From Candidatus Bathyarchaeota archaeon (GTDB taxonomy: Archaea > Thermoproteota > Bathyarchaeia > TCS64): a DNA stretch of 64,000 nt. The stretch covers positions 62,001 to 126,000 of the forward strand of contig JABIBQ010000028.1 in the NCBI GenBank assembly GCA_018652685.1. Direction: 5' to 3'. Shown in pieces: positions 784 to 31,512 of this stretch. The first letter of the stretch is position 1; the number at the start of each line of letters is the position of its first letter. A program made the translations under genes and the position numbers. The notes below the pieces were generated by a model that was not told the DNA's origin, ran no database searches, and was given only the letters and a program-made list of their open reading frames with translations.

Positions 784-2049
784 ATGCAGAGCTGGGAGAT
801 CAAGGACCCTATACACGGCTACATCGAGGTAACACCCACTGAAAGGGCTGTAATTGATACGCCCCAGTTCCAGAGACTCAGGCGAGTAAAGCAGCTGTCA
901 GCCGCTCACCTGACCTATCCGGGTGCAGAGCACACCCGGTTCCAGCACAGTCTCGGGGTCATGCACATATCGGGTGAGATAGCCCGCAGGCTGCAGGATG
1001 TTGAGCTAATCAATCAAAAGGATGCGAACAGGATACGTTTAGCCGGGTTGCTCCATGATATCGGGCACGGCCCATTCAGCCACCTGTTCGAGGAGGTTCT
1101 TGAAAAGATGGACATGGACCACGAGCAGATGTCAACGAGAATAGTCAGGGAGACCGAGGTTGGTGATGTCCTGAAAGGCCATGGCTTCGATGCCAAAGAG
1201 GTGGGCGACCTATCAATCGGGCACCTGGACTGCAATAAACCGTACATCAACAATATTATAGCGGGCCAGTTCAGCGCGGATGTACTGGACTACCTGCCAA
1301 GGGACAGTTATTTCTCAGGAGTCGAGTACGGCAAGGTGGACTTTGACAGGCTGGTCAGGAGCATAGGGGTGGTTGATGATACCCTGGCGGTGAAGGACAC
1401 TGCTCTATACGTGCTGGAGTCCATGGTCATCGCTCGGTATATGATGTTCAAGGCCGTCTATTTCCACCGCAGCGTCAGGGCCGCAGAGGTTATGCTTGTA
1501 AGGGCGATGGAGCTGGCAGATGAAGAGTTGGGAATAACGGGATTCAAGACCGCAGACGAGTACCACCAACTTGACGACAACTCAGTAATCAGTATGCTAA
1601 GCTCCCTGAAGGACTCATCAAGCAAGGAGAGCAGGACCGCTTACGAGCTGACCCAGGGTTACCTCGACAGGAAGCTCCTCAAATGCGCCTACGAGACTGT
1701 GGTTCACAGGCGGGACAGGCTTGCAGTCAATGTCATGGCCATGGCTGATATCAGGGAGAACCTGGCAAAGGATATCGCTGATGAGGCTGGTGTTGACCGT
1801 AACACCGTCATCATGGACGTGTCAACGGCACCCAGCGTACCATACGCTGCGTCGCAGCAGCAGCCCCAGGACATACCCCTATACCACGAGACTGGGGACG
1901 GAGGGAAAAAAAAGGTTAGTTTCAGCGAGATGAGTCCACTTGGAGGCACACTCGTGGGCTACCTGGACGTGATGAGAGTCTACGCGAAACCCGATGAACT
2001 TGAGTCAGTCAGAGAGGCAACTGAGAACAAATTTGGAAAAGAGCAGTAG
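784..2049 (+). CDS. HD-domain phosphohydrolase, SAMHD1-like
   Basis: IKDPIHGYIEVTP...DTPQFQRLRRVKQL...HTRFQHSLGVMH...LLHDIGHGPFSHLFE; HD motif and SAMHD1-type N-terminus. Confidence 0.88.
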   Translation: MQSWEIKDPIHGYIEVTPTERAVIDTPQFQRLRRVKQLSAAHLTYPGAEHTRFQHSLGVMHISGEIARRLQDVELINQKDANRIRLAGLLHDIGHGPFSHLFEEVLEKMDMDHEQMSTRIVRETEVGDVLKGHGFDAKEVGDLSIGHLDCNKPYINNIIAGQFSADVLDYLPRDSYFSGVEYGKVDFDRLVRSIGVVDDTLAVKDTALYVLESMVIARYMMFKAVYFHRSVRAAEVMLVRAMELADEELGITGFKTADEYHQLDDNSVISMLSSLKDSSSKESRTAYELTQGYLDRKLLKCAYETVVHRRDRLAVNVMAMADIRENLAKDIADEAGVDRNTVIMDVSTAPSVPYAASQQQPQDIPLYHETGDGGKKKVSFSEMSPLGGTLVGYLDVMRVYAKPDELESVREATENKFGKEQ

Positions 2050-2115
2050 CTACCAAGATACGCTTCTAAAGCCTGATATACCTCTTTTACCCAGCATAAT
2101 ACGGAGTTCTGGAGC

Positions 2116-2346
2116 ATGTCCAAGGTGTATGTATGCCCATTCTGTGGGGTTGAGAAGCCGAAAAAGAACCAGATAGACTTCCATTTAAAGTACGGCCACG
2201 CCGAAGCCTACCACTTGTTGCAGGAGGACGTGGAGTTGCACGACCTTGAATCCAAGATGGATGAGTTGTACAAGGAAAAGAAGCTCCTCGACAAAGAGAT
2301 TGACCTCATGAAATCCATTATTGAGGTTAAGAAAAAGGAAGACTAG
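2116..2346 (+). CDS. Small C2H2 zinc-finger protein with coiled-coil tail
   Basis: VCPFCGVEKPKKNQIDFHLKYGH (C-x2-C-x12-H-x4-H type) followed by a charged heptad-rich helix. Confidence 0.65.
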   Translation: MSKVYVCPFCGVEKPKKNQIDFHLKYGHAEAYHLLQEDVELHDLESKMDELYKEKKLLDKEIDLMKSIIEVKKKED

Positions 2347-2744
2347 TCTAGGATTTCGACCTTTCCCTGGTCGGCATCAACCCTGACCCTCATCCCGTTC
2401 TTTATCACTTTCAACGGGTCTTGATCAAGCTTGTCCACTAGCGGTATGTCGCTTATGACGCATCCGGTGGCTAGTATCGCCTCAGTCTCGATGTTGATGA
2501 TTGCGGCGGGTGCCGTGCCAAGCTTTGCCATCCTGTAAATGACGTAGCTGCCTACGGTGCTTCCCTTCCCCGTGGGGAACACGAATACCTTGCCAGTGAT
2601 GTTCTCGCCTTTGCAGCTGTGCCCTGGGTCGACTATTATCCCGGTGACCGGGTCAACGCCCCCGTAAAAGCTCACGGAGTCCATGGATACCAGTGCCTCG
2701 CCCTCGGCCACACCGCCCATGACCTTGCGTCCCTTTAGTATCAT
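2343..2744 (-). CDS. Phosphomevalonate dehydratase small subunit (aconitase X swivel domain, DUF126)
   Basis: MILKGRKVMGGVAEGEALVS...GKVFVFPTGKGSTVGSYVIYRMAKLGTAPAAIIN; AcnX swivel domain, adjacent to AcnX catalytic subunit. Confidence 0.88.
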   Translation of the reverse strand: MILKGRKVMGGVAEGEALVSMDSVSFYGGVDPVTGIIVDPGHSCKGENITGKVFVFPTGKGSTVGSYVIYRMAKLGTAPAAIINIETEAILATGCVISDIPLVDKLDQDPLKVIKNGMRVRVDADQGKVEILD

Positions 2745-3931
2745 TTTGCGGCCTCCTTGACTAAGCTCTCAACCGTTTGCAGTTTTGTCTCAAAGCCGTG
2801 GGCCGTGCTGTAGTGTCCGCCCTTGAAGCTGTTGGTGCCAACTCCTTTCCACCCCATCTCGTGGAGTGGCGCGACCACCATACAGGTATCACGGTAAACC
2901 CTTCCACCGGCGTCCTCGATTATCTTGATGAGACCGCCCTTCTCGGCTTGGTCATAGACGCCCCTGCTGGTGAAGACCCAAAGTTTTCCATCAAGGCTCT
3001 TTCCCTTGACTAGATTTGCCGTCTCCTCCATCTCCTTGAGACTGCAGTGTGGGCATCCTATGCAGTAGGTTGGGTTGTCAGGGTCGGAGACTATCTTTGT
3101 CTTTGCCTCCTTGATGTCCTCTTTTGTTATTGTAATTGTCTCGATGCCTTCCAGGTAACCTGCGGCCCATTCTGCCTCAGGTGTGATTCCCTCGCCGTGC
3201 CACAGGGCTATACTCCCGCTAGTGGCGCAGGCGGCCCCCATTGTTTTCATTGACTCCATGTCAAGGTCACCAAGGCCCCTGAAGTAGGGAACAGCTGACC
3301 CTAGCAGCTTTCCTGTGACATAACCGAGCCCGCTGTAGTCCAGCCTCGAATTCAGGTCTGCCTCCACCTGTATAATCTTGGCGGGCTTCCTATTCTCGGG
3401 TAGCCTATAACCGTACAGGGCCGCGACTCCCGTGACCGCTGATGCAAGGGTCGTTGGCCCCGACTCACGATTTGTCCTCGCTGCTAACACGCTGTTTACG
3501 AAGCAGACTGCGTTTGACTCGGCCCATGCGACCTGTGTTCCCCTCCTGGGGACGTGGCCGATGAGGTATGGTGTGCAGGTGCAAGTTGGCTCTACTCCCA
3601 TGGACTCGAAAGCGTCAAGAACCCGCCTCTGGCCAATGGCGAACTCCTCTGGGACGCCCATCTCCTTCCACTTGTCCATGTCCATTCCAGCAGGGTTCAA
3701 TGTTGCTCTGATCCTGCACTTAGCCCCCGTGGTCGCCTGCTCCTCAAGCCACTCGGTGCCCGCCTCTCCCAGGTTCTTGTAGCTTACCCCGCTTATGTGA
3801 GCCGACTCAACGGGCACCAGCTTTTCCGCGCCGAATACGCTGCCGAGTGCCACCAGTAGCTCAATGGATTTCCTGACGGCTACCCCTTCCTCGCCGTTCA
3901 TCATCCGCTCCTGTTTCCGTGTCAGATACAT
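2741..3931 (-). CDS. Phosphomevalonate dehydratase large subunit (aconitase X catalytic domain)
   Basis: MYLTRKQERMMNGEEG...GVEPTCTCTPYLIGHVPRRGTQVAWAESNAVCFVNSVLAARTNRESGPT; start shortened from the 3979 ORF to the internal ATG. Confidence 0.88.
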   Translation of the reverse strand: MYLTRKQERMMNGEEGVAVRKSIELLVALGSVFGAEKLVPVESAHISGVSYKNLGEAGTEWLEEQATTGAKCRIRATLNPAGMDMDKWKEMGVPEEFAIGQRRVLDAFESMGVEPTCTCTPYLIGHVPRRGTQVAWAESNAVCFVNSVLAARTNRESGPTTLASAVTGVAALYGYRLPENRKPAKIIQVEADLNSRLDYSGLGYVTGKLLGSAVPYFRGLGDLDMESMKTMGAACATSGSIALWHGEGITPEAEWAAGYLEGIETITITKEDIKEAKTKIVSDPDNPTYCIGCPHCSLKEMEETANLVKGKSLDGKLWVFTSRGVYDQAEKGGLIKIIEDAGGRVYRDTCMVVAPLHEMGWKGVGTNSFKGGHYSTAHGFETKLQTVESLVKEAAK

Positions 3932-4199
3932 GAAATTCAAATGAAATGGTAATCTACCGCTATTTAGACCCTTACACATATAATATTCAATTATTTGTGA
4001 TATTAAATATGATTCAAATCGGGGAGTGGGACAAGATGGGCCGTATCGTGAAGATGTGTCATTTTTCTTACATCGGCTACGAGACCGTCATAGACTAAAG
4101 TACCTCGATTGGCTCCCTTGTGCACATTGACCGTGAGCACTCATATGAGATAAAAACCCGACATAATTAACTATTACTAATAAATTATTGTAATAATGG

Positions 4200-27138: not shown

Positions 27139-29193
27139 ATGCTGATCAAAGAGGTAATTCTAGAGAACTTCATGTCATACGAGTATGCCCGTATACCCCT
27201 TAGGGAAGGGGTGAACGTCGTATGCGGACCAAACGGCTCGGGCAAGAGCAGCCTCCTTCTAGGAATCTGCGTCGCCCTCGGGGACACATACACAGAGAGA
27301 TCAAAAAAATTAAGCGACCTCATCAGGTGGGGCGCTGATGTCGCCAGGGTAACTTTGACCCTTAACAACGGCAAAAAGGCAAACGGCTACAGGCCCGTCC
27401 CACAGTACAACATGGACGATATCACCCTCACGAGGACCCTCCGCACGGACGGCAAGTATGGTTTCCAGCTCAACCAGAGGAATGTCTCGAAGATCGAGGT
27501 AGTCAGCCTGCTCAAGACTTTCGGTTTCGACCCCAATAATATGCTCATCATCATGCACCAGGCCATGCCAACCAGGTTTGCCAACATCAACCCTAAGGAG
27601 AGGCTCAAGATACTGGAATCCGCAGTCGGGTATGAGACGTTCAGGGATGACGTCATCGAGGCCAAGAGCAAGCTAAGCGGAGTCCTCAGCGAGGAGCAGA
27701 GCCTTGGTAGCCTAATGAACCAGGCAAGGGAGACACTCAATTACTGGCGCGAGCAGAACGAGAGGCTTCAGGAAAAGAAACAACTCCAGACCAGGCAGGT
27801 CTTTCTCCAGCAGGAGATGGCATGGAGCCGCGTCGTAATGCTTGAGGCACAGGTCGAGAAGCTACTGGACCAATTCGGCGACACCGAGAAGGACTTGGCT
27901 GATGCCGAGGCCGAGATGGCCAGGAACACCCAGAACATCGTTGACTCAGAGTCATCTCTACGTGAGATGCGCACCCACAGGAACGACCTCATCGAGAAGA
28001 GGATCGCGTCAGAGAGGGCAATCGGCGTAAACGAGTACAGCATCAACGCTGCCAAGGAGCAGATTACCCAGCTTGACAGGATACTCAAGAACAGCCAGGA
28101 GCAGAGGCAGAGGTTCGAGTCAAGCTTCAAATCATTACTTTCACAGGTCCAGGGTAGCGATACCAAGCTGGACGATTACTTCAGCCTCTTCACCCAGATC
28201 GAGGAGACACAAGTCGAGTCATACGACAGCCTCAATACCGAGTTCGGATCACAGAAGATGGTCAACCAGACCAGCCTAGAGTCCTTCTCAAACCAGCTAT
28301 CAGCGGCAGAGGAGGAGAGCCTGCGCCTCATGAACGAGATGGAGGGCGTCCGCAGGGGTATCGAGCAGTCAAACGACAAGTACATCGATTCCAGGATCAG
28401 GCTGGCCCTCCTCAAGGACAGGAGGCAGAGGCTAAGCCGCAGGGTACAGCTACTACAGGGCGAGATTGACAGGGCAAACAGGGATCTGAAGGACTCAGAG
28501 GCAGAGGCACTCATCAGGGGCCCCAGGATCGAGACCGGTAGGACCGGCGACGACATACTCAACGAGATCAGGAAAACCCAGGGCATCCTCATGGGCATGG
28601 CAAACATCCCCGACGAGGCCGAGGAGATGTACGAATCCTACAACGAGACCTATAAGGAGATTCAGAAGCGCATCGAGGAGGTCAGGGCCAACAGGATCAG
28701 AATTCTACAGGAGATCGAGGAGCGCCAGAAGAGGTGGCGAGAGATGACCGAGACGATGCTTGACGAGGTCAACATCCGGTACAAGCAGCTTCTCAGGAAG
28801 CTCCAGGCCGTAGGCGAGGTCAGGCTCATCAACAACCATGACATCGAGGAGGCCGGGCTTGAGATGTACGTTGGCTTCAAGGGGGCGGCGACACAGAAGC
28901 TGGACCCCTACACCCATAGTGGAGGCGAGAGGAGCAGCAGTGTAATGGCGTTCCTGCTGGCACTGCAGCAGAACATACTGAGTCCATTCCGGGCAGTGGA
29001 CGAGTTCGACCTGCACATGGACCCCCAGAACAAGGAGGCCGTCAGTGATTTCATCGTCTCTACCATGGCGGGCACAAACGACCAGTATATCGCCATCACG
29101 CCTAGCCAGGTCACTTTCAAGGGAACGGATGTCCACATCATCATGATTCACAAGTCCGAGACGGTCTCGATACCGAGGCTAGTGGAGGCGTAA
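27139..29193 (+). CDS. SMC-superfamily ATPase, SMC5/6-like, short arms, no recognisable hinge
   Basis: Walker A GPNGSGKSS after LENFMSYEYARIPLREGVNVVC; QEMAWSRVVMLEAQVEKL; signature HSGGERSSSVMAFLLALQ; Walker B SPFRAVDEFDLHMDPQNKEAV; 684 aa. Confidence 0.85.
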   Translation: MLIKEVILENFMSYEYARIPLREGVNVVCGPNGSGKSSLLLGICVALGDTYTERSKKLSDLIRWGADVARVTLTLNNGKKANGYRPVPQYNMDDITLTRTLRTDGKYGFQLNQRNVSKIEVVSLLKTFGFDPNNMLIIMHQAMPTRFANINPKERLKILESAVGYETFRDDVIEAKSKLSGVLSEEQSLGSLMNQARETLNYWREQNERLQEKKQLQTRQVFLQQEMAWSRVVMLEAQVEKLLDQFGDTEKDLADAEAEMARNTQNIVDSESSLREMRTHRNDLIEKRIASERAIGVNEYSINAAKEQITQLDRILKNSQEQRQRFESSFKSLLSQVQGSDTKLDDYFSLFTQIEETQVESYDSLNTEFGSQKMVNQTSLESFSNQLSAAEEESLRLMNEMEGVRRGIEQSNDKYIDSRIRLALLKDRRQRLSRRVQLLQGEIDRANRDLKDSEAEALIRGPRIETGRTGDDILNEIRKTQGILMGMANIPDEAEEMYESYNETYKEIQKRIEEVRANRIRILQEIEERQKRWREMTETMLDEVNIRYKQLLRKLQAVGEVRLINNHDIEEAGLEMYVGFKGAATQKLDPYTHSGGERSSSVMAFLLALQQNILSPFRAVDEFDLHMDPQNKEAVSDFIVSTMAGTNDQYIAITPSQVTFKGTDVHIIMIHKSETVSIPRLVEA

Positions 29194-29194
29194 T

Positions 29195-29968
29195 ATGTCA
29201 GAGCTTGAGAGCGTCATCAACCTGTGCCTGATGGTTCAGAGCGGCAAGATCGAGCCATTCGACATCGATTTTGATTACGTGATGAGTGTTATCAAGAAGA
29301 ACTATCCAAACCTCAAGAACGTCCAGGAGTTCTGCCTGGACGCACAGGCGCTCAAGGAGCTGAGCAACGTCCTTGAGCGGCAGAACCAGTGGATCGAGCA
29401 CCAGTCAACCACGTTGTACAAGGACCCGTTCATGTTGAGCCAGAGCCTCATGGGCATGGACATCGGGGCCATAGCGAACGCGTTCCTCCGTTCATGGCAT
29501 CCACTCATGGAGATGGAGCAGATAAGCACCAAGACCTTGGCGGGGAGCCTGAGCTACTGGGGCGGACTGATACCCTTCGATGAGAGGTGGCAGGACTGCC
29601 TAGTGGAGGAGCGAGAAACTGAGTACGCCAGCATGGACGAGGCGATAGAGCTGGGTTTCATACCCGGAGAGGGGTTCACGGAGGTCGTGGAGAACTTTTG
29701 GAAGGAGCTCGGTGAGCGCGTCGGTCCAGGAGGTATAATAGAATACTGGGAGTGGATAGGGGAGGAGACCTACGAGGCCACCGTATACAGGGCCTACTTA
29801 ACGGTCTTCATGGTGGGTTACGGCTACGCGAACGCCCACTGGGACCGACTCATGGAGGAGAACAAGATCATACACAACGTGGAGCCGCGGCCTGACCCGG
29901 GCCAGCAGAAGGTCAGCATACCGACGATGGTAGATTACGAGGAATGGAAACAATGGCAAAACGATTAA
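29195..29968 (+). CDS. Putative kleisin-like (ScpA/Nse4-type) subunit of the SMC complex
   Basis: N-terminus LESVINLCLMVQSGKIEPFDIDFDYVMSVIKKNYPNLKNVQEFCLDAQALKELSNVLERQNQWI resembles ScpA; 1 nt downstream of the SMC stop codon. Confidence 0.45.
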   Translation: MSELESVINLCLMVQSGKIEPFDIDFDYVMSVIKKNYPNLKNVQEFCLDAQALKELSNVLERQNQWIEHQSTTLYKDPFMLSQSLMGMDIGAIANAFLRSWHPLMEMEQISTKTLAGSLSYWGGLIPFDERWQDCLVEERETEYASMDEAIELGFIPGEGFTEVVENFWKELGERVGPGGIIEYWEWIGEETYEATVYRAYLTVFMVGYGYANAHWDRLMEENKIIHNVEPRPDPGQQKVSIPTMVDYEEWKQWQND

Positions 29969-30531
29969 CCAAGACGGAGCAGGTATACCAGAGGAAGCTA
30001 AAGGACGCGGTCCACCTACTATTCTTCACACACCACAGGCTGCCCGGCGTGCGTGGTTGGGAGCTGCGCAAGGAGCTGGGTGCCGACTGGCAGAACATTA
30101 TCGAGGTTCTGGACAAGCAGCTCCAACCACTTGACCTAAAGGTTACCCGAGTCTTGGAAGAGCCAGACATCGTGGAGCCCACCAACGCCCAGTTACAGGA
30201 GGCGAGGTACTACATCATCATGAGGGGCACCGTTGACCAGAAGACCGCCAAGACCATCGGCTGGCGAATCGACGACATAGCGGGTCTGGCCGTATCCGTG
30301 GCCTATATCATCTCAAAGCAGGGCAAGGTCCCCCGCCAGGACGTGGAGCGGATACTGGAGGAGAAGCTGCCTGGATGGAGGGTCAAGCTCAACATCGACA
30401 GGTACGTCCGCCAGGGTTACCTGGGAGAGGACGACTCGGGTATCCTGTACCTCGACTGGAGGGCAAGGGCAGAAATTGATACAAAGAAGCTCGTTGATCT
30501 CGTGGTCAGTTTCGGAAAGAAAGCGGCCTAA
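29944..30531 (+). CDS. Putative kite-type winged-helix subunit, Nse3/MAGE-like
   Basis: GLAVSVAYIISKQGKVPRQDVERILEEKLPGWRVKLNIDRYVRQGYLGEDDSGILYLDWRARAEIDTKKLVDLVVSFGKK resembles the MAGE homology domain (..WVRQ-x-YL..Y-x-W-x-RA-x-AE..); overlaps the upstream ORF. Confidence 0.5.
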   Translation: METMAKRLTKTEQVYQRKLKDAVHLLFFTHHRLPGVRGWELRKELGADWQNIIEVLDKQLQPLDLKVTRVLEEPDIVEPTNAQLQEARYYIIMRGTVDQKTAKTIGWRIDDIAGLAVSVAYIISKQGKVPRQDVERILEEKLPGWRVKLNIDRYVRQGYLGEDDSGILYLDWRARAEIDTKKLVDLVVSFGKKAA

Positions 30532-31116: not shown

Positions 31117-31512
31117 ATGGCGCAAGATGATCCTAAAATGTTGGGCACAGTTAACGAGGTTGGCCTGAAGAGGGACGAACAGGAGTTCAGGAACTATAAC
31201 CTCACGGTCGGGATCAAGCTCAAGACAGGGAAGAAGCTGACCTACGCAGAGGGCGCGAAGCTCATCAAGCAGCTTAGGAAGAACCTCCTCGGCAAGAACA
31301 TTGAGCTGGAGGCCATCGCCGTGCCGTGCCCATTCTGCGGTAAGACCTACAACAGCGAGACGGGCATGAAGCAACATGTTAGGCGACAGCACGAGGGTGA
31401 GGAAGAACCACCCAAGAAGAAACGGGGCCGTATAAAAAAGGCAGCAGTCAAAAAGCCCACCAAGAAGTCGGCAAAGAAGCCGAGGAAAAAGTCTGCCTCC
31501 AAGAAAAAATAA
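31117..31512 (+). CDS. C2H2 zinc-finger protein with histone H1-like Lys/Ala/Pro-rich tail
   Basis: CPFCGKTYNSETGMKQHVRRQH then KKKRGRIKKAAVKKPTKKSAKKPRKKSASKKK. Confidence 0.75.
   Translation: MAQDDPKMLGTVNEVGLKRDEQEFRNYNLTVGIKLKTGKKLTYAEGAKLIKQLRKNLLGKNIELEAIAVPCPFCGKTYNSETGMKQHVRRQHEGEEEPPKKKRGRIKKAAVKKPTKKSAKKPRKKSASKKK

Follow-up and report, generated by a model that had tools for sequence, protein, structure and literature searches.

The usual description of an SMC complex is a ring that a hinge closes, and loop-extrusion models rely on this hinge together with long arms. The window analysed in this study, a 64-kb piece of an archaeal draft genome (99 contigs, 94.9% complete and 8.7% contaminated), encodes an SMC ATPase of only 684 aa (27139..29193; this gene and the other parts of the gene set described below lie on the forward strand). 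This raises the questions of whether the hinge is missing from the protein or only from the assembly, to which SMC lineage the protein belongs and how it could dimerize.

Architecture of the short SMC protein

The ORF, running from the ATG at 27139 to the stop at 29193, encodes the parts expected of an SMC superfamily ATPase, i.e. a split ABC head with the Walker A motif in the N-terminal half, the signature and Walker B in the C-terminal half, and a coiled coil in between. Walker A reads GPNGSGKSS (residues 30–38, 27226..27252), with G30–S37 largely invariant among 73 sequences. The ABC signature SGGERS (594–599), Walker B AVDE (619–622) and the following MDPQN (627–631), which together occupy 28918..29031, are Smc5/6-like in wording, as judged by motif alignment. 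The Pfam family SMC_N spans residues 3–674 (8.4e-34). SMC_hinge was absent from the window protein in the Pfam search, was not among the 25 most frequent Pfam families of 73 relatives (29 rarer families were found beyond these) and was found in none of five short SMCs from distant genomes searched with the same library. That the library sees a hinge when one is present is shown by its SMC_hinge matches in this genome's canonical SMC (3.3e-16, residues 531–642) and in that of a relative. A CxxC motif was found in none of 91 short SMCs, whose whole sequences were scanned.

In the AlphaFold2 model, built on a 73-sequence alignment (mean pLDDT 83.7), the head carries a single antiparallel hairpin, composed of an ascending neck/arm helix (residues 166–336, 27634..28146) and a descending arm helix (residues 345–460, 28171..28518). 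Its tip, where a hinge would be, is a loop of eight residues (337–344, 28147..28170), predicted with a pLDDT of only 54–69, and the monomer model contains no globular, hinge-like apex. This is also the least conserved and most gapped part of the protein: conservation among the 73 sequences is 0.8–0.93 across much of the head and 0.32–0.39 at residues 321–360, where 33–39% of the sequences have gaps, and the tip region is still smaller in distant relatives. The head-proximal helices (residues 470–554, 28546..28800; delimited by the model and by conservation) are, like the head, highly conserved, and their position suggests the equivalent of the SMC joint and neck. With a helix rise of 0.15 nm per residue, the neck and arm of the window SMC are estimated at approximately 25 nm; for ordinary SMCs, published abstracts give roughly 47–50 nm.

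The ORF, the Pfam search, the CxxC scan and the AlphaFold2 model agree with the initial annotation, which had described a 684-aa SMC ATPase lacking both a hinge and a Rad50-type CxxC hook, and the model also fits its estimate that about 330 residues separate the two halves of the head, as well as the apex position it had suggested. The heptad pattern that it had noted in this mostly charged middle part is clear in helix 166–336, for which 2 of 2000 shuffles gave a signal as strong, and weak in helix 345–460 (142 of 2000 shuffles).

Conservation of the short form and its affinity to Smc5/6

The hinge could have been lost through a deletion in the assembly, and the initial annotation had named hinged homologues as a sign of this. 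None was seen among relatives of the short SMC. In a genome-wide scan, of which the best 80 of 247 loci were kept (the predominance of Bathyarchaeota among them may reflect the ranking), 76 SMC copies lay wholly within their contigs; 73 of these were 628–691 aa long, and the other three were frame-broken fragments. Alignment A1 omits the frame-broken L044, L110 and L115, the near copy L040 and all copies truncated at a contig end. A second sample comprised 20 genomes fetched around the neighbouring kleisin gene (see below), of which 19 belong to other classes of the phylum. The SMC was present in the same stretch as the kleisin in 18 of these (554–657 aa; encoded on the other strand in L150), and the remaining two had it elsewhere in the genome, as 584-aa and 607-aa open frames. 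With the short form in 73 intact Bathyarchaeota relatives and in all 20 distant Thermoproteota genomes sampled, an assembly deletion was ruled out; no hinge was found in relatives across the phylum.

A profile of the 73 short SMCs was compared with PDB chains, and the top matches were human Smc6 (198 bits), yeast Smc6 (186 bits) and yeast Smc5 (179 bits). Lower down were human Smc5 (144 bits), level with archaeal Smc (143 bits), and Smc2 (119 bits). The control, a profile built from seven canonical SMCs of this and related genomes, gave the reverse order: archaeal Smc (573) and full-length Smc1–4 (271–384) scored far higher than Smc5 (113) and Smc6 (100). Searches of PDB with single sequences were less clean, with yeast Smc5 first, archaeal Smc close behind it, then Smc3, and the two human proteins, Smc6 and Smc5, further down. 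A tree was also built from 38 heads, omitting Rad50 and long SMCs that were incomplete or without a recognized Walker A (L174, L207 and L208). In it, nine canonical SMCs were separated from the short SMCs and Smc5/6 with a bootstrap of 100; bootstraps were 29–70, on long branches, for the points at which Smc5 and Smc6 branch with respect to the short SMCs. The link to SMC5/6 drawn in the initial annotation holds in the profile ranking, the single-sequence searches, the head tree and the canonical-SMC control. Together with the Pfam and AlphaFold2 results, this makes the assignment of the window protein as a short, hinge-less SMC of the Smc5/6 type well supported.

The adjoining kleisin and KITE genes

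An SMC without a hinge would need another mode of dimerization, as the initial annotation had pointed out. Two genes located directly downstream, which it had missed, provide a ready candidate. The first (29195..29968, 257 aa) begins one base past the SMC ORF and encodes a Nse4-like kleisin, assigned from Pfam matches of the family and from PDB profiles. The second (29944..30531, 195 aa) encodes a KITE protein and, counted from its first ATG, shares 25 bases with the kleisin gene; an alternative ATG is present at 29953. A further ORF near the gene set (31117–31512, 131 aa) carries a motif resembling a C2H2 zinc finger and, after it, a tail that is rich in lysine and proline and similar to that of histone H1.

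The kleisin has a helical N-terminal domain (residues ~1–73) and a C-terminal winged-helix region (~145–225). Pfam recognizes no family in the window's own copy, and its assignment rests on relatives: Nse4_C was matched in 59 of 78 family members (best 1.7e-6) and in 17 of 28 more diverse members (5.6e-9). When PF08743 was searched for directly, the window's genome had no match, and the 14 control genomes together had a single one, under the cut-off. In the PDB, the kleisin profile matched yeast Nse4 (8.7e-6) and human EID3 (1.5e-4), then, weakly, the C- and N-domains of ScpA (0.013–0.027), and the first seven rows were all kleisins; matches to Nse4/EID3 and to both ScpA domains indicate that the protein is kleisin-like at its N-terminal as well as its C-terminal end. 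A viral origin was rejected after one kleisin scan of viral contigs returned no match. The genome G486 holds two Nse4-like kleisin copies (C1:446914–447687 and 955467–956243).

The KITE protein is predicted to fold into a tandem winged helix (pLDDT 85.8). Among 350,542 chains searched with Foldseek, the four best matches came from MAGEG1–NSE1 and Nse1–Nse3–Nse4 structures (E-values of 6e-4 to 1e-3), and MukE was at rank 9. VIA-align gave a Z-score of 11.5 over 93 residues for MAGEA4 and of 10.7 over 150 residues for 7dg2_C. These fold scores are moderate, yet the expected family heads the list, with both domains covered. Sequence matches were weak: Pfam Nse1 was found in 2 of 75 members and in 4 of 28 diverse ones, the corresponding counts for MAGE being 1 and 5 (best 2.7e-4, in the diverse set), and comparison of the KITE profile with PDB sequences returned only weak rows, none of them a KITE. 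No RING is apparent, as the KITE proteins of two overlapping sets (A2, 75 members; A5, 28 members) carry at most two cysteines and no CxxC. By its predicted structure, and weakly by sequence, the third gene encodes a KITE of the Nse1/Nse3 type. The Nse4_C matches, the kleisin rows in the PDB search and the KITE fold matches rule out that the two proteins are unrelated regulators.

The three genes recur as a set. Among 101 loci, the kleisin family was present in 100, the SMC in 99 and the KITE in 98, and no other family was similarly frequent: those that follow in frequency lie opposite the three genes, overlapping them on the other strand, and among genes separate from the set the commonest family is present at 36 loci. 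This last family, not present in the window, lies approximately 2.9 kb upstream of the kleisin gene and upstream of the SMC gene, mostly on the opposite strand. In the close loci (best 80 of 247), kleisin was found in 78 and KITE in 77. L050 and L043 end within or soon after the SMC gene, and L053 is a true exception, having a 681-aa short SMC (2027–4069, 42% identical to that of the window) with no kleisin or KITE gene adjoining. In 398 genomes of the phylum, the kleisin profile had matches in 158 and the KITE profile in 157, both being found in 155, the kleisin alone in three (G158, G167 and G283), the KITE alone in two (G277 and G420) and neither in 238. Within the class to which the window belongs, 56 of 75 genomes carry the kleisin; outside it, 102 of 323 do. 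A hinge-less SMC–kleisin–KITE gene set of the Smc5/6 type is therefore widespread in one archaeal phylum.

A proposed hinge-less clamp and its alternatives

The region 27139–30531 encodes a conserved, co-occurring set of an SMC with a short, variable arm and neither hinge nor hook, a kleisin and a KITE, and we consider it probable that this set forms a minimal Smc5/6-type complex, homodimeric and clamping DNA without a hinge or long arms. A single short SMC gene was found in each of 21 genomes, with no second one to form a heterodimer, which suggests that the SMC protein pairs with itself. Two ATP molecules would join the heads, and the kleisin would bridge them, with its N-terminal helices on the neck of one SMC and its C-terminal winged helix on the head of the other. 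A pair of KITE proteins would sit on the kleisin middle and close a chamber above the heads, in which DNA would be held as in the DNA-clamped yeast Smc5/6, until ATP hydrolysis frees it. As the hinge and distal arms are gone, only kleisin, KITE and heads would be left to close the ring. Its role would be the maintenance of chromosomes.

According to the available part of PMC9191643, DNA in yeast Smc5/6 is gripped by the Smc5/6 heads and necks with Nse1, Nse3 and Nse4, and the text seen of PMC8327961 describes nucleotide pull-downs in which hinge-deleted Smc5 and Smc6 were used with pieces of Nse4. The former are the clamp-forming parts retained here, and the latter is an engineered precedent for work on heads without a hinge; together they are the grounds for proposing an ATP-driven DNA clamp acting through kleisin and KITE. 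The archaeal set shares with the eukaryotic Smc5/6 core the nearest relatives of all three components (Smc5/6 for the heads, Nse4 for the kleisin and Nse1/Nse3/MAGE for the KITE fold). It differs in its single SMC, where the eukaryotic core has two, in lacking a hinge, in an arm about half as long or less and in having one KITE gene, whose product has no RING; no Nse2 or Nse5/6 gene was recognized in the neighbourhood of the 101 loci. A more far-reaching reading is that Thermoproteota retain a hinge-less homodimeric relative of the Smc5/6 ancestor, with its Nse4-like kleisin and Nse1/3-like KITE, that it is often the sole SMC complex and maintains chromosomes as a pure ATP-driven clamp, and that hinge and long arms are inessential to SMC function. 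This can be put forward only tentatively, and we regard it as less probable than its opposite.

SMC5/6-related archaeal SMCs were described by Yoshinaga and Inagaki in 2021 (cited in PMC9389158) and, matched by description only, are most likely the same lineage; the available part of PMC9389158 is silent on whether they lack a hinge and on any kleisin or KITE partner. In the literature searched (titles and beginnings of abstracts, with bioRxiv preprints and most subscription papers outside the search), no archaeal Nse4, archaeal Nse1/3-type KITE or natural hinge-less SMC complex was described. The SMC–kleisin(–KITE) plan is shared with bacterial Smc–ScpAB and archaeal Smc–ScpA, in line with the weak ScpA matches at both kleisin ends; the canonical SMCs checked are, however, about 1,180 aa long and have SMC_hinge, and the short SMC has neither property. 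An archaeal KITE contrasts with the published view, since the accessible text of PMC7055376 reports KITE to be absent from archaeal Smc–ScpA, and reports no smc, scpA or scpB in Crenarchaeota. For eukaryotic Smc5/6, which in human cells protects chromosomes, the set provides archaeal relatives of kleisin and KITE, beyond the SMC alone, as a compact form without the arm-joining part. It is also a natural test of the need for a hinge, preparable from three small proteins, and if a widespread natural complex has heads, kleisin and KITE but no hinge or distal arms, clamping would be separated from extrusion.

The strongest alternative, though an unlikely one, is a machine working tip to tip or arm to arm, in which the short arms touch, the SMC thereby dimerizes or bridges two DNAs, and kleisin and KITE are regulatory. 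Contact of this kind was proposed for RecN, an SMC-like protein with short arms and no hinge, and a hinge-less hairpin arm with a hydrophobic heptad signal in helix 166–336 would suit it. To our knowledge, RecN has no kleisin or KITE partner, and the heads of the short SMCs differ from it in being Smc5/6-like. A conserved tip contact is made unlikely by the variability of the apex and its shrinkage in distant members; contact between the arms nearer the head would escape this objection.

The composition of the proposed clamp is also that of defence complexes against plasmids or viruses. Wadjet (MksBEF/JetABCD) and, among other SMC complexes, MukBEF have a kleisin and a KITE, and their SMCs have long arms with a hinge. 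Defence genes are usually patchier than the KITE gene, which is present in 29 of 32 genomes from the order. PADLOC models matched the SMC (mad3 1.3e-31, LmuB 1.1e-20) but neither the kleisin nor the KITE, and the kleisin scan of viral contigs was empty. Wadjet has a nuclease subunit (PMC10586767, in the part available), whereas no further adjoining gene is conserved at a similar frequency in the 101 loci. A Wadjet-like role is therefore improbable.

Even less probable is a split SMC, whose hinge would be supplied by a separate polypeptide encoded elsewhere. The search covered the known hinge family, which leaves room for a divergent one; against this, the apex has no conserved docking surface, and in the 10 of 21 genomes without a long SMC found with TIGR02169 (G035, G039, G093, G140, G146, G272, G278, G388, G402 and G408) the sole SMC_hinge match was weak (G035, 0.019, in a 272-aa frame). 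Hardly tenable is a relative of Rad50, arcadin-4 or ASRP (coalescin/ClsN, Sph) that lost its zinc hook, which would fit the small, SMC-like, archaeal nature of ASRPs and an NCBIfam match to ASRP (5.8e-18), as SMC_prok_A scored far better (4.2e-58), Smc5/6 stood far above Rad50 in the PDB searches, none of the 91 short SMCs has the CxxC of a hook that most ASRPs carry (PMC9389158, in the part available), and Rad50 does not have a kleisin or a KITE as partner (PMC10586767, likewise).

The 21 genomes are mostly drafts (85–98% complete), and 11 of them also encode a long SMC, split over two contigs in G079; in the ten others the short protein may be the only SMC. A hinge search alone misses some long SMCs, as those of G048 and G225 had no hinge match. 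ScpA (PF02616) was weakly matched in four of the 21 genomes, so its absence elsewhere says little. G093, one of the ten, encodes an 826-aa SMC-like protein with a CPVC motif (C2:12580–14073, L210), perhaps a Rad50 or ASRP. The window's own genome has, besides the short SMC, a canonical hinged SMC of 1183 aa with an adjoining divergent ScpA (G000:C22:17573–21762, L171 and L211).
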